From a virus, in the IMG/VR virus record IMGVR_UViG_3300033153_006334, positions 1-54,067 of that record: a DNA stretch of 54,067 nt; one strand, given 5' to 3'. Under the pieces are notes generated by a model. It had not been told where the DNA came from. It searched no databases and was given only the letters and a program-made list of their open reading frames with translations. The translations under genes were made by a program, and so were the position numbers. This document shows, piece by piece, positions 12,601 through 28,998 of this stretch (position 1 is its first letter; each line of letters starts with the position of its first letter).

Positions 12601-12911
12601 TTAGTTGGTCTTCAAATGAGACAAAAGAATGGTGGTTTGAGAACGGAACAGCTTATAGACATTGGAGATTATATATTAATGGGAATGCGGCTGGACAATA
12701 TGCAACTATCTGTGAATTAGAATTGTATCAGTGCAATGCTTATACAACAACGACAACCACAACTTCGAGTTCAACCAGTTCTACGGCTTCAACTACGAGT
12801 ACAGTATCAACAACCAGTACCATTTCTACTACAAGTAGTACAGTTTCAACAACCAGTTCTACATATTCATCTACAACGAGCAGCAGCACAACCACAACAA
12901 CTACAGCATAA
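9618..12911 (+). CDS. tail tip / hub protein with discoidin domain and two Ser/Thr stalks
   Basis: GTG at 9618 is the start, overlapping the previous stop (GTGA). The 1097 residues divide into an N-terminal hub-like part, an inserted module at about 200-270 with the common phage pattern GTIQIDSEEIDYTG..FTGCTRG, a beta-rich middle, and a Ser/Thr tract at about 827-890. Next comes a discoidin (F5/8 type C) domain at about 890-1040, with ATASSDE and a later KSDASGFPQWINIE. A second Ser/Thr tract of about 55 residues follows, ending in Thr runs and Ala. Discoidin domains bind glycans, so this protein may touch the host surface from a flexible stalk. Both tracts use many different Ser and Thr codons. 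Confidence 0.8.
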   Translation: MKTLSAFNQTAVDNPHVDIIRLVKIDFGGLILYLCDRTWGDSGSKCIFNGQIYEPLIVSWGTIDQGRIDPITFRYSPGQASFTVDNKPTVGGFDCFTSIFPTYRPHKAIVTISQIFNGATLAADEITEWEGKIEDFPTMKQDVVGMTCIGYDLSILASFEHTTVSFSNYPGADPDEVGKMLPVVYGEAKKVPFIAADVGSMTTTTEDLDTTETVIDVTDASLFPTSGTIQIDSEEIDYTGTTATQFTGCTRGVNDTDASEHDPAATVAELQSNYYFIIEHPLVSVPVVYVEHRTTGEFVRQLTDIYTIYTGQTGDEHASYPGKGVIEFNLLPSINKQINIEAVDTIDVDDAIGVDDNIGMSVGGNTKDCYPNSGPSSGRDGSTWTAYRLPLGVTSFGFASTNYGTIVSQTIFVYVQSFDTGYCNISLSGGSGSLIVQGYMSHGSWMRIPCTGGSWSSSIVMNSGSGEFWVFDCYKVVEYNATGSKTGSAYRDGAATKTGTVTLTGNSVADTVIGGAVCADVQGYPADASGNYGTVDSLIARPDHILKHILVKKCSLSIDRIDTASYDASGARYTTYFMEQAVVLLNPPVVPDLVYDIARQSRSLVFWEAGQHHLRFIEMEETTDKELIANRIDLNSIKVSYTNRTYIKNKFTAVFNKEWTAASRQGVELFTEAIEVQDDDSIDDYGTLEAEQIEYPYIEDGGTALICLNDVKVNKKRPKNLIELIGGLYLSELEMGDVLSFSFSSGDKLDLALLKLIASTVNQFRVMGKIQTSKSDMKLYLSFEATSDAITYEGAFYPIVSSDDGYCISTFFYNNVNENIIGGTSDETSTSSTSSTASTTSTSSSTHSTTTFTTTSTSTTISTTSSSTTTSSSSSSSTTTTTGTFTTTTTVNPCDIGYETANRCVGAVATASSDELGHEAPDAIDEDIDNYWKSDASGFPQWINIEMPIARTIGKIVIKTDSTQFTYHPTSYDLKASTTGVFGGEEVTLLSHTSISWSSNETKEWWFENGTAYRHWRLYINGNAAGQYATICELELYQCNAYTTTTTTTSSSTSSTASTTSTVSTTSTISTTSSTVSTTSSTYSSTTSSSTTTTTTA

Positions 12912-14510: not shown

Positions 14511-15719
14511 ATGAAAATTGCACTATTAACAAATTTTATGGAGTTTCAACCTGGGTATTCCTTAACAGGAATTGTAAAAGACCAAGCTATTATGTTATCA
14601 AGGTTTGGTCATGACGTTCATCTGTTTGTAAATTCAGGATACAATGGGGAAGAGTTTGATGAATCTGTCACACTCCACAAGAGCATCCCTTTTACTCATT
14701 TAATAGATTATGAATCTGTTAATGATGTCACCGATGAACACAAGGAGATTATTGAGCAATGCAGGAAGAATTTAGTTGAGGAGTTAGCAGATTTTGACTT
14801 TGCTTTCACGCATGATTTCGTGTTTACAGGATGGTTTATGATATATGGACAAGCATGTAAGCAAGCTACTATAAGCCTTCCTAATTTACGCTGGCTGCAT
14901 TGGATACATTCAGTGCACAAGCTTGTCTTCCCAAACAATACGGACAGAATCAGAGTTGCAGAACAGTTTAGGGGATTTTCTGACGATGTTAGAATTATCC
15001 CACACATAAAGGATTTGCGAACGTTCTTTGATTTTAATGAGGACACTTGTAGATTTATTGATAAGTACCCTGCGATAATGCAAGCAGATGTTGTTCAGGT
15101 TCTTCCTGCTTCGGTTGATAGACTATCTTCCAAACGAGTCAAGGAAGTTATGAACATGTTTGCCGAAATGAAGATGCAAGGAAAATCGGTATTTCTTGTT
15201 ATTGTAAATCAATGGGCAACCGGAAGGAAGCAGAAAGAAGACACCAATATATATCGAACACACGCAATGAAAAATGGATTGATCGACCAGAAGGAATTTG
15301 CTTTTACTTCGGATTTTGAATCACCAAAGTTTGATGTTGGTATTCCAAAAGAAATGCTGAGAGAATTATTTCAGTGTTCTAACCTATTTATCTTTCCAAC
15401 AAGAGAAGAGAGTTTCGGATTAGTTGTTCCTGAGGCTTCATTGGCAGGGGGAGTTTTTATGGTTCTGAATAAGTCGTTGCAGATGCAAGTTGAAATCAGT
15501 GGTAACTTTGCGACATACTTTGAGTTTGGTTCACATACACAAACATTCAACCCCGATGACCCAGCAAAGTATTATCACGACCTTGCTATGATTACTATTG
15601 CAAGGATGAAAGAGAATGAATCGGTAATGACTAAGACGTTCATGCGACAAAGGTATAACATGGATAATCTTTACAGGACATTTTATGAACCAACAATGAT
15701 GGAATTGAAAGGGATATAA
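14511..15719 (+). CDS. glycosyltransferase, GT4 type (GT-B fold)
   Basis: A 402-residue protein with the layout of GT4 enzymes, which move a sugar from a nucleotide donor with retention of configuration. The C-terminal half carries the donor-site element LFIFPTREESFGLVVPEAS at about residues 290-308, including the E-x7-E motif of the family. The N-terminus (KIALLTNFMEFQPGYSLTG) has the open loop usual for this fold. AAAGGAG lies nine bases before the ATG, after a 39-base gap, so this may begin a new translational unit. It opens a block of thirteen glycan genes in the late structural gene set. The acceptor is unknown. Confidence 0.88.
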   Translation: MKIALLTNFMEFQPGYSLTGIVKDQAIMLSRFGHDVHLFVNSGYNGEEFDESVTLHKSIPFTHLIDYESVNDVTDEHKEIIEQCRKNLVEELADFDFAFTHDFVFTGWFMIYGQACKQATISLPNLRWLHWIHSVHKLVFPNNTDRIRVAEQFRGFSDDVRIIPHIKDLRTFFDFNEDTCRFIDKYPAIMQADVVQVLPASVDRLSSKRVKEVMNMFAEMKMQGKSVFLVIVNQWATGRKQKEDTNIYRTHAMKNGLIDQKEFAFTSDFESPKFDVGIPKEMLRELFQCSNLFIFPTREESFGLVVPEASLAGGVFMVLNKSLQMQVEISGNFATYFEFGSHTQTFNPDDPAKYYHDLAMITIARMKENESVMTKTFMRQRYNMDNLYRTFYEPTMMELKGI

Positions 15720-15720
15720 A

Positions 15721-16308
15721 ATGACAGGACATAGAACTTGGTTGGGGGATGAAGGGTTGAGGATTGTTGCTTGCCATCAGGAAGGGGAACTGGCAATTAT
15801 CAGAGATGTTGTTCTTGATTTTAAGCCAGAGTTAATGGTTGAATTAGGAACATGTGTTGGTGGAATTACTTTACTATTGCATCAATGTTTCCCCGATATC
15901 CCTTTGCACTCTTTTGATAATAAGTCAATAGTGAAGAGTGCAAAGAAAGCTCGGAGCAGTCTTACTATTGAGCTACTTGAAAGATTTCAGAAGGAGGCAT
16001 TCAATGAAAATGTTGAGTTCCATGTTGCAGATGTGTTTGCAGATGGGAAGTATATTGTTGAGTGCCTTCTTACAAGTGAGAAAAGAAAATTCCTTTACTG
16101 CGATAATGGCAATAAGGACATGGAAATAAATCTGTTTGCAAAATGTTTATCTATAGGAGATGTACTTGGAGTGCATGATTGGGGATTTGAAGTTGGATGG
16201 GAATGGGCAGGAGTAAAGGAAACCCTGTCTTCTTTTGAAGAGATGAGTATAAATGAAACGCTCAGAGATAAATTTTTAACAGCAAGATTTTTTAGGAAAA
16301 TAAAATGA
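15721..16308 (+). CDS. class I SAM methyltransferase, CmcI-like
   Basis: A 195-residue protein with a Rossmann-type SAM motif at about residues 39-49 (MVELGTCVGGI), an acidic residue ending the next strand (HSFDN) and a later KRKFLYCDNGNK segment. The order of these elements resembles the cephalosporin hydroxylase-like and macrocin-type methyltransferases that act on small molecules or sugars. It starts one base after the GT4 stop and overlaps the next gene by four bases. A likely role is to methylate a sugar of the glycan made by this cluster, but the target is not shown by the sequence. Confidence 0.75.
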   Translation: MTGHRTWLGDEGLRIVACHQEGELAIIRDVVLDFKPELMVELGTCVGGITLLLHQCFPDIPLHSFDNKSIVKSAKKARSSLTIELLERFQKEAFNENVEFHVADVFADGKYIVECLLTSEKRKFLYCDNGNKDMEINLFAKCLSIGDVLGVHDWGFEVGWEWAGVKETLSSFEEMSINETLRDKFLTARFFRKIK

Positions 16309-16994
16309 ATAAATTTGAAGTAGTAATACCAGTTGTTAATGTTGATTTATTGGTTAATCTTTTTGATAGCATATCTATCAATACTTTGTTGCCAAGAAAA
16401 ATTATTATAATAAATAATACTGGTAGCTCAACTAATTGGTTATTTAATAGAGCGGTTCCTTTTCTTAATAAAAAAATAACTGTTTACGTTTACTACTCAA
16501 AAACAGGACTTTGCAATGAATCAATAAATCTTGGCATTACTAAACTGTCGAAAGACTGTGATTATGTCAGCGTTTTGAATGATGATATCGTTCTTACTAA
16601 AAATTTCTTTCAGAGAAATGCAGACTTGTTACAGGATAAAGCTTGTGGTGTGTCTTGTCCTTTTACTGTTCACTCTATGGATGAGTTAAAAATAGGGGAA
16701 GTTGAAAAGCAAGTGATGAGAAAAAGAGAAGGGTGGGCACTCACAATAAAGAAAGATGTGCTTGATAAAATTCCTTTGTTTCCATCTGAAAGAATAGCCA
16801 CATTTCATTGGGATGATTGGATTTGGTTTCATACATGCAAAGATTTGAATTTTTATTGGCTAAAGGACAGAGGAAACATGGTCTTTCATCATGTAGGGTC
16901 TTCGGTAGCTAAGTTAGGTTTTAAAAAACACAAAGCAAGAGAGCGTCTTGAGTTTAATAAAATAGGTCAAGAAAAAAAGTGGGGTAGAACATGA
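16305..16994 (+). CDS. glycosyltransferase, GT2-like (GT-A fold)
   Basis: A 229-residue protein starting in the ATGA overlap with the gene before. The N-terminus (FEVVIPVVNV) is the first strand of a GT-A fold, and VSVLNDDIVL at about residues 86-95 is the acidic metal- and donor-binding motif. A later segment around HWDDWIWFH is the usual acceptor side. At 229 residues it is near the short end for a GT2 enzyme, so it is probably a single soluble domain. It forms a tightly overlapping run with its neighbours. Confidence 0.8.
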   Translation: MNKFEVVIPVVNVDLLVNLFDSISINTLLPRKIIIINNTGSSTNWLFNRAVPFLNKKITVYVYYSKTGLCNESINLGITKLSKDCDYVSVLNDDIVLTKNFFQRNADLLQDKACGVSCPFTVHSMDELKIGEVEKQVMRKREGWALTIKKDVLDKIPLFPSERIATFHWDDWIWFHTCKDLNFYWLKDRGNMVFHHVGSSVAKLGFKKHKARERLEFNKIGQEKKWGRT

Positions 16995-18112
16995 GATTAG
17001 TTTTTCTTTACACAAGTTTTGGTCCCAATCCTGTGGGTTCTAATACATACTGGAACCCAAGGGACATTACGCAGAATTTTTATGCTGTGAATATAAATGG
17101 TCTTTTATCTGAAGGCTATTTTTATATGCTTAAAAGGATGTTAGAGGAAAAGGTAGTAGATGACTTAGTTATTTTCATTGAATCAAGTAAGTCTCCCGGC
17201 TGTGTTCACTTGCAAGGAATCCCATGTTATGTCACTCCTCAGATAGAATATATCGAAGAGTTTTTAAGGGAGGACGATGTTATCTTTGCGAGAGGTGGAT
17301 TTAGAACTTGGTTTCCTTTCCTTGAGAAAATGAAAGCACAGAAAAGATGGCTTCTTTTGTATGCAGCAAATACAGGAAGGCAGAGATGGAAATTTTGGGA
17401 TGTTATTTTCGATGATCTAACAGGAAAGCATTCTTATGACATACACAATAGGTTCTTTTTCGATTTTAAGAAACCAATACATGAAGACATATTTTATCCA
17501 ACGAAAACAGAAAGGATTTATGATATTTGTATAGGTGCTTCTCATATACATGAGAAAAAAGGACAGTGGAAAACAGTCGAAGCAATAATTGAATATGAAA
17601 AGATGTTTGGTAAGAAATTAAAGTGCATCATGCCGGGGAGAGGGAACCGTGGAGTAAACACAACTAATATAAAAAATAAGGTGAGAGACTTCCACTTGGA
17701 TATCACTTTCCCCGGCATGGTTACAAGAGATGTTGTCTGTGAGATAATGAATCAATCAAAATTGTTTATGTATCTTGGTGGGGGTGGACAGAACGATAGA
17801 GGTCCCTTAGAAGCTTTGAGATGTGGAACTCCCATTATGATTGCCAATCCTCCCAATCATTCTCCTGTTGTTTATAGCAACCCACAAGTTTGTGGTGTAA
17901 TTGAGAACAGCGAAAACTTTCAATTGGTTGCTAATGAGATGCATGATGTATTAAAACAAACGAGTGAAGGGAAACGAGAATATGTTTCCAGTTATTTTCA
18001 ATCTTCTTGTGGGTTGAGTGAGGTTATCATTCCAGACATGAGAAAATTGTTTAATATTATAAGGGCAAATCCTGTGCCCAATGCAGAGACACTTAAAAAG
18101 GAGTATCTATGA
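16991..18112 (+). CDS. glycosyltransferase-like protein, GT-B fold
   Basis: A 373-residue protein with a GT-B-like plan. The N-terminal half ends in a linker near residue 175. The C-terminal half has IGASHIHEKKGQW (start of the donor domain), then a Gly-rich loop and the segment DRGPLEALRCGTPIMIA at about residues 270-286, which matches the donor-binding end of GT4-type enzymes. The classic E-x7-E is replaced by a shorter arrangement, so it may be a divergent member. It overlaps the genes before and after by four bases each (ATGA). Confidence 0.75.
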   Translation: MRLVFLYTSFGPNPVGSNTYWNPRDITQNFYAVNINGLLSEGYFYMLKRMLEEKVVDDLVIFIESSKSPGCVHLQGIPCYVTPQIEYIEEFLREDDVIFARGGFRTWFPFLEKMKAQKRWLLLYAANTGRQRWKFWDVIFDDLTGKHSYDIHNRFFFDFKKPIHEDIFYPTKTERIYDICIGASHIHEKKGQWKTVEAIIEYEKMFGKKLKCIMPGRGNRGVNTTNIKNKVRDFHLDITFPGMVTRDVVCEIMNQSKLFMYLGGGGQNDRGPLEALRCGTPIMIANPPNHSPVVYSNPQVCGVIENSENFQLVANEMHDVLKQTSEGKREYVSSYFQSSCGLSEVIIPDMRKLFNIIRANPVPNAETLKKEYL

Positions 18113-18774
18113 AAATACCAATAGGAATACTTACATACAGAAGACCGGAGTATCTTAAAAGAACGATTGAATCTTTTTTAGATTTGAATAGTGATAGATT
18201 AGATATGTTTCCTTTACTTCTACTTATACAAGGAGGCTATGATAAGGAAACTGATTTGGCAATTGAACAGTTTGAAAAGCATATGTACAGGATATATATT
18301 TCGGAAGAAAATTTAGGCTGTGCAGCAGGGTATAATAAAGTAATGGGGTATGCTTTGTCAAGAGAAACGGATTTGGTTATGCATTTGCAGGATGATTGGG
18401 AATCGAGAGAATCTTTATCAAAATATATTGATGAAATTATCAATGTATTTGAGGAGCATCAGGACATTGGTTATATGCGATTGAGAGCTTGGAGATTAGG
18501 CACCCGTGTCTGTGGAAAGAATAGAATAACGAGAGAGGGAATTAAATATGATAGTGTATCTGAGAATATAGCCAAATCTACTGCCCATTTCACACTCAAC
18601 CCAACAATCATAAGAAGTGTTGTTTTAAGGAAAATGCTCCCAATCACAAAAGAACTAAATGCTATGCACAAGTACCATGAACTTAACATGAAAGCTGCTC
18701 AGTTATATGCCAATTGTTTTCGTCACATAGGAGCAGATAGGGCAATGGAAGAGGGCAAAAGGTGGATAAAATGA
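18109..18774 (+). CDS. glycosyltransferase, GT2-like (GT-A fold)
   Basis: A 221-residue single-domain enzyme. It begins with IPIGILTYRRPEYLKRTIES, a common start of GT2 proteins, and has MHLQDDWESR at about residues 89-98, where the paired Asp bind the donor and metal. ENLGCAAGYNK at about residues 65-75 is the usual nucleotide-side loop. The same QDDW or EDDW form occurs in the enzyme at 22597-23325, so the two may be related copies. It overlaps both neighbours by four bases. Confidence 0.85.
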   Translation: MKIPIGILTYRRPEYLKRTIESFLDLNSDRLDMFPLLLLIQGGYDKETDLAIEQFEKHMYRIYISEENLGCAAGYNKVMGYALSRETDLVMHLQDDWESRESLSKYIDEIINVFEEHQDIGYMRLRAWRLGTRVCGKNRITREGIKYDSVSENIAKSTAHFTLNPTIIRSVVLRKMLPITKELNAMHKYHELNMKAAQLYANCFRHIGADRAMEEGKRWIK

Positions 18775-19472
18775 TTTGCGGATATATGCATGTTTATCAA
18801 GTACACAATTGGTCAGAGATTATGGAGCAACAGCTTTACAGAATAAAGAAGTCGAGTCTTTTTAATAAAATGGAAAAGTTGTATGTTGGTGTAATTGGAA
18901 AAGAACCAGTAAGGGCTCTTGGTAAGAAAATAGAAATAATCTATCAAATAGATAAGCCAAAATTATATGAGTCGCTTACTCTTACCTGTTTACATTTGAA
19001 CTCACACACATTTAATGGACAAGTTTTCTATACCCACACAAAAGGGGTTTCTCGAAACTCTCCACAGCCCCAAACTGATTGGCGAAAAATGATGGAACAC
19101 TTTATAATTGACCGACACAAGGAGTGTTTGAAGGAACTGAATAAAAACGATGTTGTTGGCATTAACTGGCATCTTGGGAATGGGCATATGAATGCCAAAA
19201 TTAAATTTGCTGAAGGAGCGAAAGTAACTCCTCACTTTTCTGGAAATTTCTGGTGGGCAAATACAGATTATATTAAAAAGCTTCCCATATTATTTCCATT
19301 GAAGAGTAGATATGATTGTGAGTTTTGGATAGGGAAAGCAGTTCCTAAAATAGCTGAGTTGTGGCACACAGGAATACACCATCATAGAAAAACATATGAG
19401 GAATCGGAATATATTGGAAAGATCAAAGCTCAATATTACTATGGGAATGAAAGAAGACATAACGTTGCATAG
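18771..19472 (+). CDS. putative glycosyltransferase / glycan-assembly protein
   Basis: A 233-residue protein starting at ATG 18771 in the ATGA overlap. GTG 18762 in frame would add three residues. Notable words are YTHTKGVS, PHFSGNFWWANTDYIKKLP and WRKMMEHFIIDRH. The YTHTKG and GNFWWA elements recur in polysaccharide-assembly proteins of the RgpF-like kind, though I cannot place it in a named family with certainty. Sugar transfer is likely from its context between two enzyme genes. No membrane segment is seen. Confidence 0.6.
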   Translation: MICGYMHVYQVHNWSEIMEQQLYRIKKSSLFNKMEKLYVGVIGKEPVRALGKKIEIIYQIDKPKLYESLTLTCLHLNSHTFNGQVFYTHTKGVSRNSPQPQTDWRKMMEHFIIDRHKECLKELNKNDVVGINWHLGNGHMNAKIKFAEGAKVTPHFSGNFWWANTDYIKKLPILFPLKSRYDCEFWIGKAVPKIAELWHTGIHHHRKTYEESEYIGKIKAQYYYGNERRHNVA

Positions 19473-19494
19473 ATTATAGGAGAAATCACATATT

Positions 19495-20202
19495 ATGAGC
19501 ATTGTGGACAGTTCAGAGAAGAGAAAAAGGATATTATCAGAGCTTGAAACAACGATTTTGGATTTAGGAGTTGATGACGTTCCTGTTTTTGGTGGGAAAT
19601 ACGAAGGAGGGATTCATTTACAACAGGTTTCTGATGAGATATCTGAGTGCATTTATGATTTGGTAAATATGAACTTCAATGTAAAGTTGAATTTTTTAGA
19701 GATTGGTGCTGCTGCTGGTGGGAATACATATCTGTTTAATCACTTTTTTAATTTTGAAAACATAGCAATTATTGATGATAACAAACATAAAAAATATGCG
19801 CTCAGACAAGAAATATTAAAAGACGTTCCTCACAGTGAGTTTATTGGTAATTCTCACTCGGAGCAAGCAGTAAAATTTTTGGAAAATCTTCAATGTAATT
19901 ATAACATAATATTTATTGATGGTGACCATAGTTATGAGGGGGTGAAGCAGGATTTTGAAACGTACAAGAAATTTTTAAACTACAGTGGTTTTGTTATTTT
20001 CCATGACACATATTTTTGTGAAGGAGTTAGACGCTTTGCAAATGAGTTAAAAGAAGAGGCACTTTTGTTTAATCCCCACCACAATGATATACAGCCGATA
20101 AAATTCTTTGGTGAGTATATAAGTGAAGGGAAAAGAAAATTAGGAATTACAGTTTTTCAAATTTATTCAATCCCAAAATGGAGGGAAAACGATGGAATGT
20201 AG
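19495..20202 (+). CDS. class I SAM methyltransferase (Methyltransf_24-like)
   Basis: A 235-residue protein with a SAM motif at about residues 66-76 (LEIGAAAGGNT) and the family mark IFIDGDHSYEGVKQDF at about residues 139-154, followed by a strand ending in FHDT. The IDGDHSYEGV form is typical of methyltransferases found in sugar and polysaccharide gene clusters. It starts 22 bases after the preceding gene, with TAGGAG as ribosome site, and overlaps the next gene by 11 bases. The substrate is unknown. An O-methyl sugar is the most likely target from its neighbours. Confidence 0.8.
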   Translation: MSIVDSSEKRKRILSELETTILDLGVDDVPVFGGKYEGGIHLQQVSDEISECIYDLVNMNFNVKLNFLEIGAAAGGNTYLFNHFFNFENIAIIDDNKHKKYALRQEILKDVPHSEFIGNSHSEQAVKFLENLQCNYNIIFIDGDHSYEGVKQDFETYKKFLNYSGFVIFHDTYFCEGVRRFANELKEEALLFNPHHNDIQPIKFFGEYISEGKRKLGITVFQIYSIPKWRENDGM

Positions 20203-21358
20203 AATATGCAATACAACTCTGAAGAAGTTTTTAGATTTAGGGAAACAGCCAATCGCCAATAAGTTTTTGAAAGCAGATGAACTTTTGAATGAGAGATACT
20301 ACAAACTTGAGATGTTCTTTTGTCCCGAGTGTTATACGGTGCAGATAGGAAACTGTCCCTCAAAAGAAGATGTATTCAATGATGAGTATGCCTTTTATTC
20401 TTCAACTTCTGAATACATGAAACGACACTTTGAAAATCTGGCAGTGGGGATAAAAGAGAGTAAGATGCTGCCAAGAAATGGTTTTATTGTTGAGATAGGA
20501 AGTAATGATGGTACATTTCTAAAAAACTTTAGGGATTATGACCATTTAGGAATTGAGCCATCGAGAAATGTTTGCCTTGCTGCGAGTGAAAATGATATGG
20601 TGTGTTTGAACAGATTTTTCAATGAAGAAACTGCGAATTGGATTATTGATATGTATGGCAAAGCTGATGTGATAGTCACAACAAATTGCTTTCCACATAT
20701 GATTGATAGAGGGTCAGTACTCAATGGGATAAGGAAGTTGATGAAACCTTCAGGAATATGGATAAATGAAGAAGCATATTTACAGAATATAATAGGCAAA
20801 TGCTCTTATGACCAGTTCTATAATGAGCATATTTATTTTTCTTCCATTGCTTCATTTAAAAAAGTTGTGAAAATGTATGGCATGAACTTATGGAATATGC
20901 GATTAATTCCGGTACATGGTGGGTCTATTAGATATTATACCACACATGGAGATATAGCGCCTTCTCATCAATTTAGTATGAATGATTATGAAGTCAAAGA
21001 AAACTTAAATCTGTTTTGTAGGTTTGAGCAGTTTGCAGAAGATGTTAAAACAAGACGGCATATATTTTTAGATAAGATGCTCGAATTAAAAGGGGATGTT
21101 GTTGGATATGGAGCAACAGCGAAAAGCACAACAGTATTAAATTATTGTAAGATAGGTAATAGTTTAATAAGCAGGATATATGATACGACACCTATCAAGC
21201 AGGGAAAACTTAGTCCGGGGATGCATGTTCCAGTTGTACCTTATTATGAATTTGAAAGAGATAATCCTAAAAATGTGGTTATGTTTGCTTGGAATCATAT
21301 GGAAGAGATTATGGAAAAAGAAAAGGGAAAGGATATCAATTGGATTCTACCAATATAA
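20192..21358 (+). CDS. NDP-sugar C-methyltransferase (TylCIII / NovU-like)
   Basis: A 388-residue protein with the three-part plan of sugar C-methyltransferases. A zinc-binding N-terminus has CRIC at residues 3-6 and CPEC at 44-47. The SAM domain has VEIGSNDGTFL at about residues 98-108, and FYNEHIYFSS near residue 210 carries the Glu-His pair of this family. The C-terminal domain has VVGYGATAKSTTVLNY. These enzymes add a methyl branch to carbon 3 of a keto-deoxysugar nucleotide. No dTDP-sugar biosynthesis genes are in the window, so the host must supply the precursor or the genes lie elsewhere. GGAGGG precedes the ATG. Confidence 0.85.
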   Translation: MECRICNTTLKKFLDLGKQPIANKFLKADELLNERYYKLEMFFCPECYTVQIGNCPSKEDVFNDEYAFYSSTSEYMKRHFENLAVGIKESKMLPRNGFIVEIGSNDGTFLKNFRDYDHLGIEPSRNVCLAASENDMVCLNRFFNEETANWIIDMYGKADVIVTTNCFPHMIDRGSVLNGIRKLMKPSGIWINEEAYLQNIIGKCSYDQFYNEHIYFSSIASFKKVVKMYGMNLWNMRLIPVHGGSIRYYTTHGDIAPSHQFSMNDYEVKENLNLFCRFEQFAEDVKTRRHIFLDKMLELKGDVVGYGATAKSTTVLNYCKIGNSLISRIYDTTPIKQGKLSPGMHVPVVPYYEFERDNPKNVVMFAWNHMEEIMEKEKGKDINWILPI

Positions 21359-22020
21359 ATAAATATGTGTATATACATATTCCAAGATGTGCTGGTACCT
21401 TTACTAGAGATGTTCTTAGGAATACTTTTGGAATAAAAAGAGTGTATCGAGATTTAGCCTATAAAAAGGAAGCCAAGCTGCACAAATCACAAAACAAGGA
21501 AGAACCATTTATTGTCAACCGTTTTGTTTTGTGTGAACGAGTGTACCCAAAAAGATTCCACATTATTGACGAAAAAAACTATGACATTATCTTTGGTCAT
21601 TTTACAATAAGAAAATATGGAATGATGGGTTGGCCTTTTATTACTTTTTTGAGAGACCCAGTTGAAAGAGTTATTTCTGAATACAATGCTTTGAAGAGGG
21701 AAAATGAAAAATATTTTAATCTAAGCGTTGTAGAATATGCGAGTCTGAATCGAAACTTGCTAACATGGATGCTAAATGGCAGTATTGATGACCTTTCTTT
21801 TATCGGATTTGTAGAGAAGTATGAGGAGAGTTTAGAAAGACTTGAATCTTTTTTAGGCAAGAAAGTAATAAGAATTGGTAGAGCGAGAAAAAACCATAGT
21901 AATTATAAAAACAGAAAATACAAGAAATATATGCCTACTGATGAAGAGAGAAAGATAATTGAATCTTTTAATAAATTAGACATGGAGTTGTATAGGGAAG
22001 CTTATGAAACCATTAGTTGA
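21340..22020 (+). CDS. carbohydrate sulfotransferase (family 2-like)
   Basis: The likely start is TTG 21340 (226 residues), six bases after GGAAAGGA. ATG 21289 would add 17 residues but overlap the gene before by 70 bases. The protein begins with YVYIHIPRCAGTFTRDVL, the 5'-phosphosulfate loop that binds the donor PAPS. TFLRDPVERVISEYN at about residues 101-115 is the 3'-phosphate binding motif. Both are the hallmarks of sulfotransferases that put sulfate on glycans. Such an enzyme is unusual in a phage structural region and suggests a charged glycan. It depends on host PAPS. Confidence 0.8.
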   Translation: MDSTNINKYVYIHIPRCAGTFTRDVLRNTFGIKRVYRDLAYKKEAKLHKSQNKEEPFIVNRFVLCERVYPKRFHIIDEKNYDIIFGHFTIRKYGMMGWPFITFLRDPVERVISEYNALKRENEKYFNLSVVEYASLNRNLLTWMLNGSIDDLSFIGFVEKYEESLERLESFLGKKVIRIGRARKNHSNYKNRKYKKYMPTDEERKIIESFNKLDMELYREAYETIS

Positions 22021-22594
22021 TATTTACAAGGACAGTTTTTTCAGAACGAGAAACAAATTAATGTGGCGAGTTCCGATAGTGTGTGAGCCAATAGTGAACG
22101 AATTTGAACCACATTCAATTGTTGATGTGGGATGTGGGATAGGCGATTATGTTATGGGATTTCTTGGAGCCGGAGTTCCTTTTGCTCATGGAATAGAGGG
22201 CTCAGAAAACTGCATTCGCCATTTGGTTGTAAATCCAAAATATATAACCATTGCAGATTTACGGACACAACTTGATTTGCAGAAGTCCTTTGAGGTAGCA
22301 ATGAGCTTTGAAGTAGCAGAACATATCGAGCCAGAGTATGCAGATATTTTTTTGCTTAATCTTACCAACTTAGCTAATCGAATATTGATAACTGCGGCTC
22401 CTCCCGGACAAGGGGGACACTATCACGTTAACTGCCAACCAAAAGAATACTGGATAGACAAATTCAATCTTCTTGGATACGACAATATTCAAGAGAGAGC
22501 CGAGAACATTAAGAAGTTTTGGGAGCCTTGGAAACACAGGAAAGAAATATATGGAGGCTATTATAACAATCTACTGTATTTTGAGAGGAGGTAG
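22004..22594 (+). CDS. class I SAM methyltransferase
   Basis: A 196-residue protein with the SAM motif VDVGCGIGDYVMGF at about residues 40-53 and a second acidic strand end (GIEGS). FEVAEHIEP at about residues 103-111 is the post-II element common in methyltransferases, and ITAAPPGQGGHYHVN follows. The overall pattern is that of Methyltransf_11 or 23 enzymes. The ATG overlaps the sulfotransferase end by 17 bases with AGGGAAG before it. The target is unknown, and a sugar or lipid-linked glycan is likely from context. Confidence 0.8.
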   Translation: MKPLVDIYKDSFFRTRNKLMWRVPIVCEPIVNEFEPHSIVDVGCGIGDYVMGFLGAGVPFAHGIEGSENCIRHLVVNPKYITIADLRTQLDLQKSFEVAMSFEVAEHIEPEYADIFLLNLTNLANRILITAAPPGQGGHYHVNCQPKEYWIDKFNLLGYDNIQERAENIKKFWEPWKHRKEIYGGYYNNLLYFERR

Positions 22595-22596
22595 AA

Positions 22597-23325
22597 ATGG
22601 ATATTGATGTGACGATTACAGCTTGCAGAAGACCAAAAGTTTTGGCAAGAACGATGGTTTCATTTTATGAAAATATGTTATCTGGTCATAAATGTAGGGC
22701 AGCTATCAATATTGACCCTATAGGAGATGGGGATGAACAGGAAACATTGGTTAATTGTCAAATAGCTTGCAATATTGGAGCTTATAGATTGCCAAAACAA
22801 GCAAACTTTTCAAAAGCTTTTAAATGGGTTTGGCAAAACAAAGGGGATGCAGAATTTGTATTGCATTTAGAAGATGATTGGGAATTATTGAAGAAAGTAA
22901 ACATAGAACACATGGCAAATATGTTAAGAAGACATCCGAAACTTGCTTTGCTTAGATTGCCTCAGTTTAAAGCTGATGGGGACAAGATGAAAAATTGGAA
23001 CAAGTTCTTCCCATGGAATGGGGAGTACTTTGAGTGTCCAGAAGAGTTGAAGATGTCAGTTGGCTTCTGTGGACATCCATCACTTATAAAAAGGGAGTTC
23101 ATTGATAACACTGTAAATTATATTGATACAAACAAAAACCCTGAGAAGCAGTTTCACAGAGGTCCCAAAGAGATAATGGAAGAAGTTGCTAAATGGAGTT
23201 ATGGTGTTTATGGAACACCTAAAGAGTCTGCATTTATCCGAGACATAGGAAGAAAATGGATGATTGAAAACAAATGGAAGAAGAAAGGAAGCAAAGCATA
23301 TTTTATGGAGTGGGAGAAAAACTAA
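22597..23325 (+). CDS. glycosyltransferase, GT2-like (GT-A fold)
   Basis: A 242-residue GT-A enzyme. The first strand is DVTITACRRPKVLARTM and the donor motif is LHLEDDWELL at about residues 88-97. A later GFCGHPSLIKREF is the usual region near the acceptor. It has the same N-terminal pattern (strand, RRP, helix) and EDDW motif as the enzyme at 18109-18774, which suggests an old duplication. It starts two bases after the methyltransferase stop, with GGAGG before the ATG. Confidence 0.85.
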   Translation: MDIDVTITACRRPKVLARTMVSFYENMLSGHKCRAAINIDPIGDGDEQETLVNCQIACNIGAYRLPKQANFSKAFKWVWQNKGDAEFVLHLEDDWELLKKVNIEHMANMLRRHPKLALLRLPQFKADGDKMKNWNKFFPWNGEYFECPEELKMSVGFCGHPSLIKREFIDNTVNYIDTNKNPEKQFHRGPKEIMEEVAKWSYGVYGTPKESAFIRDIGRKWMIENKWKKKGSKAYFMEWEKN

Positions 23326-23337
23326 AAGGAGGTTATT

Positions 23338-24171
23338 ATGAATTACTGCGACCCGGAAGGATTTAAAAATGAATTAAGAGAGATCAAAAAGAAAGGGAGA
23401 GATACTTTCTTTTCTTGGTTTGATGGAGGTGAGACAGTAGACGGAGCATACGAGAAAGCAGAGGATATTTTTTATCGTTTAATGCTGCCTTGGGCTAAAA
23501 AACACTTGGGAGATTTGAGCAATAAAATCTCTTTGGATATTGGCTATGGTGGGGGCGGACAAGTCCTTTCGGCTTCCGAGCGTTTTAAGTATGCTACAGG
23601 GTTGGATGTACATGATGAAATCGGCTTTGTTGAGGCAGAGCTACGAAAAAGGCAGGGTGGAGAAAATAAAAACACTGCTTTGTTTATATCTAATGGTGAT
23701 ACTATTCCTATGGACAGAGATTCAATTGATTTTATTCATTCATGGGTTACCTTTCTCCATCTTGGAACTATTGAAGTTGTGGAATCTTATCTAAAAGAGA
23801 TGTTCCGAGTTATGAAAGAGGGAGGAGTTGCAGTTATCTTTTTTACTCGTTTAGTTCGGAGTAATCGAGTTCAAAGTTTGAAGCAGTATACGGCAGACTT
23901 GAGTAAGGAACAGACAAATAAACTTGGATACAGGGAAGGAGGTCCCTTAACAAGAGTCAATCTACCAAATTTTGTCTTGTCCTTATGGAAGATGCAAGAG
24001 CTTGTTAGAAAACATGGTTTCAAACTATTGGATACAACACGCTCACAGGATGGGAAGAATAAGATATATGGTCAGCATGGAGTGGTGTTTCAGAAACCTA
24101 AAAAGGAAAAGTTGGATACAAGGAAAAAGAAACCAATAATCATCAAAGTAAAGAAAGGAAAAAAGAAATGA
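23338..24171 (+). CDS. class I SAM methyltransferase with Lys-rich tail
   Basis: A 277-residue protein. The SAM motif is LDIGYGGGGQVLS at about residues 66-78, with GLDVHDE after it and a DFIHSWVTFLHL segment, as in Methyltransf_11 enzymes. After the catalytic domain comes a C-terminal tail of about 30 residues rich in Lys (KKKPIIIKVKKGKKK), which may bind nucleic acid, acidic glycan or membrane. AAAGGAGG precedes the ATG. It overlaps the last transferase gene by four bases. The acceptor is unknown. Confidence 0.8.
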   Translation: MNYCDPEGFKNELREIKKKGRDTFFSWFDGGETVDGAYEKAEDIFYRLMLPWAKKHLGDLSNKISLDIGYGGGGQVLSASERFKYATGLDVHDEIGFVEAELRKRQGGENKNTALFISNGDTIPMDRDSIDFIHSWVTFLHLGTIEVVESYLKEMFRVMKEGGVAVIFFTRLVRSNRVQSLKQYTADLSKEQTNKLGYREGGPLTRVNLPNFVLSLWKMQELVRKHGFKLLDTTRSQDGKNKIYGQHGVVFQKPKKEKLDTRKKKPIIIKVKKGKKK

Positions 24172-25094
24172 GCAAACTATCAATCATTATGCCATTTTGT
24201 AATGAATTTCCCCAATTGATGTTTACTGTTCAAGCAGTAGCACAGTCACTTTTGGGTAGAGTCGATTTTGAACTAATCGCAATTAACAACTACTGCGAAG
24301 AAGTCAAAGCACAGAACAGAGAGCAAGACAAAGGTGGGGAAACAATAAAAGCATGTCAGCGAGGGAACAAATGGCTAAAGTATCTTGAATATACAGATAA
24401 GCTTTCTCATTGGCAGTCAAAGAATTTGGGAGTCCAACATTCAACAGGGGATATTTTGTGGTTTGTCGATGCCCACTGTGCTATCTCAAGAGATGGATTG
24501 TTTGACATGTTTCATTATTATATTAAAAATCAAGATAGATTAAATGGAACAATTCATCTTCCATTGACATATAAAATACTTGAATGGCACAGACTCATTT
24601 ACAAGCTGGCTGGGGAAATCGAGCAAGGAAATCTACATTACTCCTTTACAGGATACCGTGCAGCAGATGAGCCCTACGAAGTACCTTGTATGTCAACGTG
24701 TGGAATGATGATATCAAGAGAAATCTACGATAAATTGGGAGGCTGGCCTGTTGAGCTTGGAATATACGGAGGTGGAGAGAACTTTATTAACTACACTCTT
24801 GCTGTTTTAGGAATGAAAAAATGGATAATGACGGGAGGCGGAACGCTGTTTCATCATGGGGAGAAACGAGGCTATCATTGGAACGGTGACGATATGATAA
24901 GGAACAGATTTATTGCTAATTATATGTTTGGTGGGGACAAGTGGTTATCCTTAATGAAAGAAAATCGTAAAGGGAGAAAAGAAGTATTGACAAAAATCTA
25001 TGAAGATGTTAAGGCAACCTGTAAAAAACACAGAGAGTTTATTAAAACTAAACAGGTAATTTCTATTGAAGAATGGCTAAACAAATGGAGGTGA
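24168..25094 (+). CDS. GT2/GT27-like glycosyltransferase resembling polypeptide GalNAc-transferases
   Basis: A 308-residue GT-A enzyme. The N-terminus (LSIIMPFCNEFPQLM) and the donor motif WFVDAHCAISRDGL at about residues 98-111 match polypeptide GalNAc-transferases, where the form is DxH followed by Cys. Later, GMMISREIYDKLGGWP and YGGGENFINYTL at about residues 195-207 match the Gly-Gly-Glu-Asn segment of the same family, followed by GTLFHHGEKRG. These enzymes start mucin-type O-glycosylation by putting GalNAc on Ser or Thr. Some bacterial GT2 enzymes share the GEN element, so peptide specificity is inferred. The Ser/Thr-rich virion proteins nearby would be natural acceptors. Confidence 0.75.
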   Translation: MSKLSIIMPFCNEFPQLMFTVQAVAQSLLGRVDFELIAINNYCEEVKAQNREQDKGGETIKACQRGNKWLKYLEYTDKLSHWQSKNLGVQHSTGDILWFVDAHCAISRDGLFDMFHYYIKNQDRLNGTIHLPLTYKILEWHRLIYKLAGEIEQGNLHYSFTGYRAADEPYEVPCMSTCGMMISREIYDKLGGWPVELGIYGGGENFINYTLAVLGMKKWIMTGGGTLFHHGEKRGYHWNGDDMIRNRFIANYMFGGDKWLSLMKENRKGRKEVLTKIYEDVKATCKKHREFIKTKQVISIEEWLNKWR

Positions 25095-25099
25095 CTGAA

Positions 25100-26086
25100 A
25101 TGAAATTTAAACATTTAATAATAGGGGTTCTTATTGGGCTGCTACTTGGTGGAGGTATAGTTTTTGCTAAGTGGTCTGACTACGGGGAATTAGCATCTGG
25201 CAACATAGTTGATGGTGATGATTTTCTTGTAAGAGATGTTTCAGATGAATCCCTTGCTGCTACTGGAACACAGAAAAGATATAGTTGGGCTTCAATTAAG
25301 ACAGATTTGGGCTCTGCCGGATTTGGTGGAGATATAACAGCCGTTCTTGACTGTGCCTCTGGCGATTGTGATGATTTAGTAGATGCACCCACAGCTTTTG
25401 CAAGCACAGACGCCACTCCTGATGTATCAAGTGGAGCAGTATTTATAACCGCAAATGCAAGCGGTACAACAATAACGGATTTTGATACTGAATTAACAAA
25501 TGGTAAAATTATCTTTGTTATTGTGAATGATGCAAATACTACCTTTGATTTTACAGGCGAAGGGCTCGAAGGAATGTCCAACGATTATCTTGCAGATACA
25601 GGCGATCTTTTAATTTTTGTCTATACGACTACAGACAATCAATGGCACGCCACTATGTTTCCAAAGGAAATGAATGTGACTCTTGGTGGTTTTACTGCAA
25701 CGAGGTCTTTAGTTTCAGATGGAAGTGGAGATGTGATAGTTTCGTCAGGAGTTACTCTTGAATCTACTGCAACGATTGATTTAGACACTCCCGAAAAAGC
25801 AAGAGGGGCAATGATATTTAACAATGCCAACACTGTTCTTGATGTTACTTTGCCACCAGCAGCAGCCGGGTTAGAGGTATGGGTTTATTCTCTTTATGCA
25901 CAGGTGGTAACTATTGATGTTGATGACGGAGTTGATGTTATTCTTCTCAATGGAGCAAGTGTGGGGGCAGGAGATTCTATTGATTCCCCCGGCACAGTTG
26001 GAGATTTTATTCATCTTGTTGCTATAGATGCTACTTATTGGGTAACTCTTGAACGGTCTGGTACATGGATTGATGGGGGACCATAA
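25100..26086 (+). CDS. exported beta-rich fibre-like protein
   Basis: ATG 25100 follows GGAGGTG by seven bases and gives 328 residues. ATG 25073 would overlap the transferase gene and place residues before the signal peptide. The protein starts with a Sec-type signal sequence (positive MKFKH, then a Leu/Gly-rich core and FA|KW). The rest is beta-rich and Gly/Asp/Thr-rich, as in tail fibre or appendage proteins. No enzyme motif is seen. A signal peptide is unusual for a tail protein, since tails assemble in the cytoplasm. It overlaps the next gene by one base. Confidence 0.7.
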   Translation: MKFKHLIIGVLIGLLLGGGIVFAKWSDYGELASGNIVDGDDFLVRDVSDESLAATGTQKRYSWASIKTDLGSAGFGGDITAVLDCASGDCDDLVDAPTAFASTDATPDVSSGAVFITANASGTTITDFDTELTNGKIIFVIVNDANTTFDFTGEGLEGMSNDYLADTGDLLIFVYTTTDNQWHATMFPKEMNVTLGGFTATRSLVSDGSGDVIVSSGVTLESTATIDLDTPEKARGAMIFNNANTVLDVTLPPAAAGLEVWVYSLYAQVVTIDVDDGVDVILLNGASVGAGDSIDSPGTVGDFIHLVAIDATYWVTLERSGTWIDGGP

Positions 26087-27246
26087 TGAAAAAAACACTT
26101 ATATGTCTTTTTATTTTATTGATGCCTTTATTCTGTTTTGCTGCCCCAAGTGTAACAGGGGTATCGGGAACATGGACACATGGTGAGGCTGTTACAATTT
26201 CAGGTTCTAACTTTGGTACAAAGTCTCCTGCTGCACCTCTTATGTGGGACGATGCTGAAGGTAGAACCAGAGATACTCATACGGCTCTGACTTCTCATGG
26301 ATGGGATTATGTAAATCAGATTGCATATGCTTTTGACCCTGAATATAAATCTGATGGGTTCAGAAATGTGTCTGCTGCGCATAGTCAATCTTTGCAGCAT
26401 ATAGCTTTTGGACACGATTATAGCTCTAACCCCTCAAATCCTGCAAACACAATGGATGTTGGGATGGATGCTGGGTCAAACCAAGCTCAATGGTTTATGA
26501 TTTGTTATTATAGACTTGACCCGCTTTTTCCTGAGTATGAATCAGGGAGCAATATTAAAGACTTATGGCTTGCTGTTGATGGGTTTGATGAGTCTGGTGA
26601 CCCACACAATTATTTCTATCAAGATCAGGATGCTCTAACAGATGCCGAGACAATAGGTTTTGGTCTATTACAGGGGAATAGTGAGGGGGATTGTGATGTT
26701 TTGTGGTTTAAGGATTCTCCGTATGACGACAGGGGAAATAACCCTTTTAATGATTGGGTTCACTATGAGTACAAAATAGGGACAGATATTGGGTTAGAAA
26801 AGTTGTCTATAGATAATGTTCCTAGTTATGGTTATGATGAAGCTGACTGTATTGGGGGTAGAGGGAATACTCGTTATATTACAGTGGGGACATACTACAG
26901 GAAAAACTCAACCCTTGCTACAGACGATGATGCTTTTAGGCATTATGACGATATATATATTGATATTACGTTATCAAGGGTGATGCTTGCTAATAATTCA
27001 ACTTATTCAAGTGCAACAATTATAGAACCACAAATACCTTCTGCCTGGGCTACTGGTGAAATAACAGTTACAGTAAATCAAGGAGCAATACCAGATGGCA
27101 CGGCATATCTTTTTGTATTTGATAGCTCCAATGATGCTAATGGAACAGGTTATGAAATAACATTGGGCGATGGTGAAGAAGGAACTTGTTTTATAGGGGG
27201 CTCCCAAACAATAAAAAGCGGAAGCCAAACAATGATTTTTAAATAA
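26086..27246 (+). CDS. exported IPT/TIG-domain protein with lectin-like fold
   Basis: A 386-residue protein with a clear signal peptide (MKK, hydrophobic core, CFA|AP). Residues about 22-50 (GVSGTWTHGEAVTISGSNFG) are the start of an IPT/TIG immunoglobulin-like domain. The middle is rich in Tyr, Asp and Trp and resembles a concanavalin-type lectin or glucanase sandwich, but no catalytic Glu pair is certain. The C-terminus has a short IPT-like strand set. It follows the previous gene by TAATG overlap, and both are exported. A role in binding polysaccharide at the cell surface is possible. Confidence 0.65.
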   Translation: MKKTLICLFILLMPLFCFAAPSVTGVSGTWTHGEAVTISGSNFGTKSPAAPLMWDDAEGRTRDTHTALTSHGWDYVNQIAYAFDPEYKSDGFRNVSAAHSQSLQHIAFGHDYSSNPSNPANTMDVGMDAGSNQAQWFMICYYRLDPLFPEYESGSNIKDLWLAVDGFDESGDPHNYFYQDQDALTDAETIGFGLLQGNSEGDCDVLWFKDSPYDDRGNNPFNDWVHYEYKIGTDIGLEKLSIDNVPSYGYDEADCIGGRGNTRYITVGTYYRKNSTLATDDDAFRHYDDIYIDITLSRVMLANNSTYSSATIIEPQIPSAWATGEITVTVNQGAIPDGTAYLFVFDSSNDANGTGYEITLGDGEEGTCFIGGSQTIKSGSQTMIFK

Positions 27247-27288: not shown

Positions 27289-28998
27289 ATGGCTAATGGA
27301 TTTGTAACAACAACCCCAAGTGTAAGGCATGGTACAAACGATGTACAGTTAGATGCTGGATTCGTTGTGTGCCAGAAATTTACTTGTCCGGGCAGTGGCG
27401 CACAGGATATTTCAGAAATTGGGGCATGGGTAGAAGATTCTGGATTTGAATTTAGATTGGCTATTTTTACAGATGATTCTGGAAATTCTTGCCCAGAAGT
27501 AATAGTTGCTAATTCCGAAAGTGCCACTTTATCTTCAGAAGCATCTATGGCAAAAACGAGCCATACATATGGAACAAATCCACAGCTTACGGGTGGGGTT
27601 GATTATTGGATTTGTGTATTTTTTGATAATTTAATTAATATAGATTATTTAAATAGCTCAGGTGAAAATTCTTTATATGTTACTGGCTATACAGCATATA
27701 CTTGGCCTACCGCTACAGATTGGCATACTAATACACCTGCTGCTACTTTCGACCTTGGTATTTACGCTGTTTATGCAGCTAGTGGTGAAACCACTACATC
27801 ATCTACAACCACTTCAAGTTCAACTACAACCACTTCAAGTTCAACTACCAGTACCATAAGTTCTACATCATCTACAACTACTTCAACTACAACCACTTCG
27901 AGTTCAACTACAACCACTTCAACCACATATCCACCAGTAATATTTGATGAAGGATTTGAGGGAATAGGATATGAAGAAGATAATTGGACAGTAGAATCAG
28001 GGATTGGCACTATTAACCCAGATTCCCCTGTTTCTAATGCTGGTTCTCCTACAACGTGGGGGGATAAGTGTTGCTATATAGATATAGTAGAACAGACATA
28101 TTTATATCAGCAAGTTGCTCCAAATGCCAAATATTGGAGAGTTGAGACGGTTGTTACTTCGGAGAATATTGATGATGGGCAAGAATTTATTATTTGTTCT
28201 GGGTACACATATGTTATAGGATTTGCTTGGAGTGTTGGTTGGTATAGGAATTTTTCTGGTGACATTCAATGGCGTATGAAATGTCGGCATGATGGAACAA
28301 GTAACTATTACTATGGATTAAAAACACCAAGACTAGACACACGTTATCGAATAGAAGTTAAATGGGACGCTGATACAGATACATGGGCGTGGCGACTTGA
28401 TGGAATAAATCAGCCAAATAATATTGATGATTCTGAACCTGTAACGTCTGAGGGGACACTCACTGATAACCACGTGCCCGACACCGGAGCAATATTTCTT
28501 GGTTCTGGGGATTTAACCTCTGCAAGTATCTATGTTGATTTGGTATCTGCTCGTACTTTTGATTGGGTTGGTGGAGACCCAATAACTACTACTACAACAA
28601 CTTCTTCAACAACTACAACAACTAGCCCACCAGTATTAGAAGGATATGCTTTTGGAGAACAAAATCCAACTGATGAAAACCAAGAATCTTGGGCAACATG
28701 GTCAGATGGAGCAGCAGGAAGCCCAACAATAATTGGTGATGCTGATTGGGGGCAATTGAAAGTCTGGTTAAATGCTTCAGGACAAAGTGCTGTTAAAGAT
28801 TTAGGAAGCACAAAAAACAGAATAATCGTAGTAAAAAGGGATAAATATGGCAGCGGTTCTGGTAGTATAACTATCTATATAAGAGGACAAGCAACATCAT
28901 TTACCCAAGATGAAGGTAGTCCTTCTTGGGAAGAATATACCACACCCGTAAATAAAAATTGGAGATACATACAAACAAGGATAGAATATACAACATAG
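27289..28998 (+). CDS. three-domain fibre-like protein with two Ser/Thr linkers
   Basis: A 569-residue protein. An N-terminal beta-rich domain covers about residues 1-165. A Ser/Thr tract follows at about 166-212, then a second beta domain at about 213-430, with DEGFEGIG and RVETVVTSENIDDG as in concanavalin-like sandwiches. A short Thr/Ser linker lies at about 431-445, then a C-terminal beta domain to the end. Both tracts use mixed Ser and Thr codons. The build, domains on flexible Ser/Thr stalks, resembles mucin-linked modular adhesins. It sits just before the Ser/Thr-only gene. Confidence 0.75.
   Translation: MANGFVTTTPSVRHGTNDVQLDAGFVVCQKFTCPGSGAQDISEIGAWVEDSGFEFRLAIFTDDSGNSCPEVIVANSESATLSSEASMAKTSHTYGTNPQLTGGVDYWICVFFDNLINIDYLNSSGENSLYVTGYTAYTWPTATDWHTNTPAATFDLGIYAVYAASGETTTSSTTTSSSTTTTSSSTTSTISSTSSTTTSTTTTSSSTTTTSTTYPPVIFDEGFEGIGYEEDNWTVESGIGTINPDSPVSNAGSPTTWGDKCCYIDIVEQTYLYQQVAPNAKYWRVETVVTSENIDDGQEFIICSGYTYVIGFAWSVGWYRNFSGDIQWRMKCRHDGTSNYYYGLKTPRLDTRYRIEVKWDADTDTWAWRLDGINQPNNIDDSEPVTSEGTLTDNHVPDTGAIFLGSGDLTSASIYVDLVSARTFDWVGGDPITTTTTTSSTTTTTSPPVLEGYAFGEQNPTDENQESWATWSDGAAGSPTIIGDADWGQLKVWLNASGQSAVKDLGSTKNRIIVVKRDKYGSGSGSITIYIRGQATSFTQDEGSPSWEEYTTPVNKNWRYIQTRIEYTT

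Follow-up and report, generated by a model that had tools for sequence, protein, structure and literature searches.

A thirteen-gene late cassette of an uncultured siphophage as a probable O-glycosylation system for its own virion proteins

The window, by which we mean the whole 54,067-nt (54 kb) IMG/VR fragment IMGVR_UViG_3300033153_006334, comes from an uncultured tailed phage (a siphophage). Between positions 14511 and 25094 it holds a block of 13 ORFs, all on the + strand, inside the late genes; a TMP gene (4925-8884) and a tail-tip-like gene (9618-12911) flank the block on one side and fibre/lysis-side genes on the other. An earlier note had described a thirteen-gene glycan block within the late structural genes, between tail tip and fibre, and this placement is borne out. 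It had also described the genes as joined by ATGA overlaps, which holds for exact 4-bp overlaps at four of the 12 junctions; elsewhere we find overlaps of 11, 13, 17 or 70 bp, or gaps of at most 22 bp. The block is a single tightly packed operon, composed as follows (PF accessions give the Pfam assignments):

14511-15719, + strand: g1, GT4-like glycosyltransferase, 5' bookend (PF00534, 9.2e-6; 402 aa; first in every related cassette)
15721-16308, + strand: g2, probable class I (CmcI-like) methyltransferase (motifs VELGT...DNGNK...VHDW kept in homologs)
16305-16994, + strand: g3, GT2-like glycosyltransferase (PF00535, 2.3e-4)
16991-18112, + strand: g4, GT4-like glycosyltransferase, common inner core gene (PF00534, 1.4e-4; 17 homologs among related cassette interiors)
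18109-18774, + strand: g5, GT2-like glycosyltransferase (PF00535, 8.3e-5)
18762-19472, + strand: g6, unclassified, possibly a glycosyltransferase (no family match; 73% identity to its sister-contig counterpart)
19495-20202, + strand: g7, O-methyltransferase, Methyltransf_24 (PF13578, 2.1e-11)
20192-21358, + strand: g8, sugar C-methyltransferase (PF08484, 2.7e-34; PF08421, 6.4e-18)
21289-22020, + strand: g9, sulfotransferase, start codon uncertain (PF03567, 6.1e-7; IHIPRCAGT motif; present in the sister contig too)
22004-22594, + strand: g10, methyltransferase, common inner core gene (PF13489, 8.1e-5; 16 homologs among related cassette interiors)
22597-23325, + strand: g11, GT2-like glycosyltransferase, common inner core gene (hhalign 95% to g5; 19 homologs among related cassette interiors)
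23338-24171, + strand: g12, methyltransferase (PF08241, 1e-9)
24168-25094, + strand: g13, GT-A glycosyltransferase resembling polypeptide GalNAc-transferases, 3' bookend (PF00535, 3.9e-10)

The Pfam search of the 13 genes left three without a match (g2, g6 and g11). We assign g2 by motif, because the methyltransferase motifs are present in its alignment but its match to the g7 profile is only 11%; g7 itself also has a weak match to a PHROG annotated as DNA methyltransferase. Profile searches of the PDB with g3, g5, g6 and g11 returned nothing informative, and none of the four matches GalNAc-transferases as g13 does. The earlier tally of seven glycosyltransferase-like genes, four methyltransferases, one C-methyltransferase and one sulfotransferase is thus right or plausible for 12 of the 13, with g6 unproven. 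No multi-pass membrane protein is found among the 13 block proteins, and a nucleotide search of the block against cultured phages gave zero matches.

A sister contig keeps the block order, with 11 of the 13 genes present at 52-89% identity. We also observed that g1 lies at the 5' end and g13 at the 3' end in 39 of the 39 related loci holding both, and that the genes between these bookends vary; GT9, epimerase, UDP-sugar dehydrogenase and hexapeptide transferase genes occur in the relatives' cassettes. Since the order is kept in the sister contig and the g1...g13 cassette recurs in 39 further loci, the block is not a chance assembly. One related cassette adjoins Desulfobacteraceae chromosomal genes at its border, and lysogeny is therefore possible in the family.

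Polypeptide GalNAc-transferases start mucin-type O-glycosylation, and it is these enzymes that g13 resembles. They are the top PDB matches of its sequence profile (GalNAc-T10, 4.9e-8), and when its AlphaFold2 model (pLDDT 90) was searched with Foldseek the best 50 PDB fold matches were all GalNAc-transferases, with E values down to 2.4e-17, at about 13-17% identity in the structural alignments. In the alignment, residues D101, H103 and H229 of g13 fall at the positions of the three GALNT1 metal ligands (Asp209, His211 and His344; PMC4202792), and every homolog aligned at these sites keeps them (53/53, 53/53 and 55/55, respectively); E204 is likewise invariant among about 55 homologs. At 308 aa, g13 consists of the catalytic domain only and lacks the ricin-type lectin domain that eukaryotic GalNAc-transferases possess. 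Taken together, the sequence profile and the model suggest that g13 is probably the initiator, placing the first sugar onto Ser/Thr. Searched by tblastn against cultured phages, g13 gave a single distant match (24%), a transferase of Tunturi_4, which we dropped as a cultured relative, the first 45 kb of that phage being without Ser/Thr tails or tracts.

The other bookend, g1, has homologs at 45-92% identity and in the window lacks 16 residues that these homologs keep. At the sequence level its profile matches no solved glycosyltransferase in the PDB, GtfA included; its AlphaFold2 model is poor (pLDDT 58), and tblastn against cultured phages found no counterpart.

Around the block, virion genes of the window encode proteins with Ser/Thr-only tracts or C-terminal Ser/Thr tails, candidate acceptors that had gone unmentioned in the earlier note:

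1385-1432, + strand: C-terminal Ser/Thr tail of the virion-region protein 770-1435, kept in relatives
4119-4148, + strand: C-terminal poly-Thr tail of the presumed tail tube protein 3519-4151, kept in the related contigs G001, G007, G008, G012 and G015
12072-12308, + strand: Ser/Thr tract in the tail-tip-like protein 9618-12911, ahead of its F5/8C domain
12723-12908, + strand: C-terminal Ser/Thr tail of the same tail-tip-like protein
27760-27954, + strand: Ser/Thr tract in the fibre-like ORF 27289-28998
29012-30472, + strand: mucin-like protein with a Ser/Thr tract at about 29066-30394 (446 of 486 aa in the tract)
37772-37834, + strand: C-terminal Ser/Thr tail of ORF 37040-37837

The sister-contig counterpart of the mucin-like protein has 924 aa, and in relatives the major head protein (PHROG_29, 7e-44) bears such a Ser/Thr tail as well. 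Such tails end 53 of 1801 ORFs in the family and 0 of 1236 in random viral loci (p 7e-13), and tracts occur in 26 of 50 family loci and 0 of 120 random ones (p 4e-17); both p values are nominal, the contigs being related to one another, and the control loci were not matched for late genes. All 68 tail- or tract-bearing ORFs lie on the strand of the block, and at least one tail or tract is present in 18 of the 19 long cassette contigs, none being found in the exception, G034. Cassette and tracts occur together in G003, G004 and G006, in which most virion genes lack homology to those of the window.

Most tracts are not proline-rich. Their codon diversity is broadly that of the rest of the genome (somewhat reduced in G009), with both Ser codon families in use, which rules out DNA slippage as their sole origin and indicates that the protein sequence is maintained. 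The converse idea, that tracts imply the g1/g13 pair, failed: an (ACN)8 scan picked out 22 viral contigs whose Thr-rich tracts are moderate, many of these contigs being short fragments and all queried for g1 and g13 only, and 0/22 had g1 or a convincing g13 match, so that tracts of this kind need not depend on the pair.

We hypothesize that the block is a phage-encoded O-glycosylation operon acting on the phage's own virion proteins, a reading to which the sequences and models lead us to give a probability of about 0.75, and that the phage probably coats its particles with a mucin-like layer. The earlier note had favoured virion proteins from gene position alone; that target is now supported by candidate acceptor tails and tracts that are enriched over random viral DNA and lie on the block's strand, by the resemblance of g13 to Ser/Thr-glycosylating enzymes in profile, fold and metal ligands, and by the co-occurrence of cassette and tracts even where the virion genes are non-homologous. 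During late expression g13, perhaps with g1, would attach the first sugar to Ser/Thr of dedicated acceptor segments, namely the Ser/Thr-only C-terminal tails of head, connector and tail proteins and the mucin-like tracts of tail-tip and fibre proteins. The glycan would then be lengthened or branched by g1, g4, g3, g5, g11 and perhaps g6, and capped and decorated by the methyltransferases and the sulfotransferase, giving a glycosylated brush with a predicted role in shielding the particle or tuning adsorption. Swapping of genes within the g1...g13 frame between phages may give each phage its own glycan. The glycan and its linkage we infer from features established by sequence: the cassette and its fixed order, the fold and metal-ligand conservation of g13, and the presence, enrichment and shared strand of the tails and tracts.

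The enzyme that makes the first Ser/Thr link could be another. GT4-type GtfA initiates glycosylation of streptococcal serine-rich repeat proteins, and g1, highly conserved and just as invariant as g13 in its bookend position, might do likewise, or a host enzyme might, with g13 elongating the chain on the virion proteins. We consider this unlikely, given that it is g13 that fits the fold and metal ligands of an initiator, whereas g1 has neither a profile match to solved enzymes nor a reliable model. More doubtful still is that the operon acts, during infection or in the lysogenic state, on a host surface polysaccharide (LPS, O antigen or capsule), remodelling it for instance to keep out superinfecting phages, with the tracts being unrelated flexible linkers. 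This had been named as the main alternative, and methyl-, C-methyl- and sulfo-transferases together with sugar-nucleotide enzymes are indeed common in surface polysaccharide loci; the additional genes of the relatives' cassettes and the cassette beside Desulfobacteraceae genes also speak for it. It is disfavoured, however, by the lack of a Polysacc_synt-family flippase in the 18 contigs examined and of any multi-pass membrane protein in the block, by the position in a late operon, and by the likeness of g13 to protein rather than lipid-linked O-glycosyltransferases, and it offers no explanation for why head and tail proteins are enriched in Ser/Thr tails.

That the enzymes glycosylate modified bases in phage DNA, a target against which the earlier note had already argued, we regard as highly improbable. 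DNA hypermodification by phage glycosyltransferases is known (work cited in PMC12619734), and one could point to the PHROG match of g7 and to thymidylate-synthase-family matches in 3 of the 18 contigs, although these could be ordinary thymidylate synthase. However, g7 fits Methyltransf_24, a small-molecule family, the thymidylate-synthase family has no member in the other 15 of the 18 contigs, and no base-modification gene is seen in the window, itself a weak argument because the window is an incomplete genome fragment.

The nearest phage parallel to the proposed virion O-glycosylation is in the mycobacteriophages Che8, Corndog and Myrna, whose phage-encoded glycosyltransferases modify the C-termini of capsid and tail tube proteins and protect particles from antibodies (Freeman et al. 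2023, as related in PMC12363180 and PMC12619734). The window's phage likewise carries glycosyltransferase genes of its own, together with candidate Ser/Thr acceptor tails on virion proteins. No significant blastp match links Che8 gp109 or gp110 to a gene of the block, and neither is hit by the g1 or g13 profile; Ser/Thr tails are absent from the capsid and tail proteins of Che8. The three transferase genes of Che8 are far removed from its head and tail genes, in contrast to 13 genes in the tail region here, accompanied by methyl and sulfo decoration genes and mucin-like tracts. With the eukaryotic GalNAc-transferases (CAZy GT27), g13 shares the GT-A fold, the DxH and third His ligands and Ser/Thr-rich candidate acceptors (PMC11074326; PMC4202792), but it lacks the lectin domain and its GT27-type activity is putative. 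The Gram-positive serine-rich repeat glycoproteins (GtfA/GtfB, accessory Sec) likewise pair a very long Ser/Thr-rich acceptor with an adjoining, variable transferase cluster and carry strain-specific glycans (PMC6973325, PMC6291802); they differ in that the acceptors here would be virion rather than cell wall proteins, with no export system expected, and in that g1 does not match solved GtfA in sequence. Glycan loci for flagellin or surface polysaccharides that include methyl- and sulfo-transferases are similar in gene types and mosaic content, but the present cassette is bookended by g1 and g13, lies in phage late genes and has no membrane flippase that we could find. A search of the open literature found no precedent for a phage mucin-like protein or a phage GalNAc-transferase.

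Phage virion glycosylation is known from a few mycobacteriophages. In the present family the candidate acceptor segments can be read from the sequence, the likely initiating enzyme is of a recognisable catalytic type, and dozens of phage contigs from the environment carry the glycan genes as a portable cassette, in at least one case next to Desulfobacteraceae chromosomal genes. We give even odds to the broader proposal of a widespread phage family with self-contained mucin-type O-glycosylation, in which dedicated poly-Thr/Ser tags ending head and tail proteins, and mucin-like fibre tracts, are served by a GalNAc-transferase-like initiator and swappable genes in the g1...g13 frame diversify the coats. 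If true, phages would be shown to use the chemistry of mucin-type O-glycosylation, mucin-like glycoproteins could be produced in the bacterial cytosol with a compact system, and it would become possible to test what particle glycans do in adsorption and shielding.

The IMG/VR virus record, a linear and probably incomplete sequence of 54,067 bases, has its positions 14511-25094 filled by 13 ORFs, all on the + strand, which we call g1 to g13 in order and assign as follows:

g1, g4: + strand, GT4-like glycosyltransferase (Pfam)
g2: + strand, CmcI-type methyltransferase-like (motif only)
g3, g5, g13: + strand, GT2-like glycosyltransferase (Pfam)
g6: + strand, unclassified
g7, g10, g12: + strand, methyltransferase (Pfam)
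g8: + strand, C-methyltransferase (Pfam)
g9: + strand, sulfotransferase (Pfam)
g11: + strand, GT2-like (comparison with g5)

The gene types proposed in the earlier note are thus Pfam-backed for g1, g3, g4, g5, g7-g10, g12 and g13, whereas g11 is reached through g5, g2 through a motif and g6 has no class; the ATGA overlaps said to join the genes occur at 4 of 12 junctions, the rest being short gaps or other overlaps. The placement among late structural genes holds, with tape measure and tail genes upstream and fibre-like and lysis-side genes downstream. The window's g1 (14511-15719), as assembled, lacks 16 residues after HWIHSV that aligned homologs contain. The ORFs directly 3' of the block (25073-27246; 337 and 386 aa) and the one at 38452-39378 have hydrophobic, signal-peptide-like N-termini, atypical for virion fibres, and a small Cys-rich ORF (34535-34783, 82 aa, CxxC/CC motifs) is flanked by two large fibre-like ORFs.

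A g13 profile built from eight homologs and searched against solved structures matched mainly polypeptide GalNAc-transferases (T10 at 4.9e-8, T9, T4, T7, T12, T2, T1), and also a GlcNAc-transferase (6h1j) and heparosan synthase; the other GT-like genes searched in this way gave no such GalNAc-transferase matches. The AlphaFold2 model of g13 is confident, and GalNAc-transferases account for every one of its best 50 fold matches in the PDB. Residues D101, H103 and H229 correspond to the GALNT1 metal ligands Asp209, His211 and His344 (PMC4202792) and are invariant where aligned among about 55 homologs, as is E204 of the GGE motif. Lacking a lectin domain, g13 is GalNAc-transferase-like, not a proven GT27 member.

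Scanning with a g13 profile yielded 50 viral loci, and g1 is also present in 31 of 37 new records. Wherever both could be placed (39/39 loci), g1 comes first and g13 last on a single strand, separated by 0 to 9 genes. This interior is a mosaic in which a g4-g10-g11 core is frequent; among its otherwise unassigned genes are methyltransferases, glycosyltransferases, acetyltransferase-like hexapeptide proteins, epimerases and UDP-sugar dehydrogenases. The sister contig, G002, retains 11 of the 13 genes in the same order and encodes a 924-aa counterpart of the window's mucin-like protein. Three more distant contigs (G003, G004, G006) share g1 and g13 with the window, carry few or none of its virion genes, and also have Ser/Thr tracts near the cassette; contig G009 has the tail module in common with the window and contains a tract of >1,200 aa. 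The cassette also lies on one bacterial MAG contig, from Desulfobacteraceae UBA5616 (L390:11035-20918), where its neighbours are ordinary genes of a chromosome (FAD-dependent glycerol-phosphate oxidase type, citrate transporter, transaldolase); these metabolic genes suggest a prophage border and, for part of the family, a host within the Desulfobacterota, although MAG binning could mislead. A Proteobacteria MAG (L391:142-3353) has homologs of g1 and g13 at a short distance from each other, with no same-strand interior genes, next to bacterial enoyl-CoA hydratase, permease and CinA genes; this pair could be a minimal cassette.

Candidate acceptors, which the earlier note had not noticed, are Thr/Ser-only segments in several late proteins:

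29012-30472: + strand, Thr/Ser-only over nearly the entire length
9618-12911: + strand, tail-tip-like, two tracts, one directly ahead of an F5/8 type C carbohydrate-binding domain
27289-28998: + strand, one tract
770-1435, 3519-4151, 37040-37837: + strand, short C-terminal tails

In the tail-tip-like protein the carbohydrate-binding domain sits between the two tracts, resembling a binding head on a stalk. Within tracts, codons are about as diverse as elsewhere and Ser is encoded from both of its codon families, so it is the amino acids that are maintained, not merely a DNA repeat.

Against 120 viral loci picked via a random 14-mer (1.1 Mb), tracts (at least 35 Ser/Thr per 50 aa) were found at 26/50 g13 loci versus 0/120 (Fisher p 4e-17) and tails (11 Ser/Thr in the last 16 residues) in 53/1801 family ORFs versus 0/1236 (p 7e-13), both p values being nominal, as the contigs are relatives of one another, four fragments in the family set were picked by tape-measure homology and the control is unmatched for late genes. 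Five cultured-phage stretches, totalling 136 kb, show neither feature. Across 19 long contigs, 18 hold at least one tailed or tract-bearing ORF, and all 68 such ORFs lie on the block's strand. A tail is also present on the major head protein (PHROG_29) of relatives that show 80-90% identity to the window in neighbouring genes; the window itself, being a fragment, probably lacks head genes. A 149-aa ORF of another family contig (G041 56385-56834, minus strand) is partly a Ser-Pro repeat (SPSPSP...), a further low-complexity Ser segment. The reverse test failed: Thr-rich tracts also occur in viral contigs without g1 or g13, so tracts alone are no proof of the system. At the level of sequence, the acceptor segments, the cassette and the conserved catalytic site are established.

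Remodelling of the host surface by the block is unlikely, given that 18 contigs showed no Polysacc_synt-family flippase, that none of the 13 block proteins is a multi-pass membrane protein and that such a role leaves the Ser/Thr tails unexplained. Modification of phage DNA is less probable still, with no base-modifying genes seen in the window, itself a fragment, and no thymidylate-synthase family member in 15 of 18 contigs.

The probable glycosylation of the phage's own virion proteins has its nearest known counterpart in mycobacteriophage Che8 (PMC12363180, PMC12619734), whose transferases are unrelated to those of the block and whose capsid and tail proteins are without Ser/Thr tails of this kind. 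Late expression would produce soluble enzymes beside the virion proteins; g13, perhaps together with g1, would place the first sugar on Ser/Thr tags and tracts, the remaining transferases would extend the glycan, and methyl and sulfo groups would cap it. We infer both this chemistry and its benefit to the phage: the resulting glycan brush would shield the virion or adjust how it binds.
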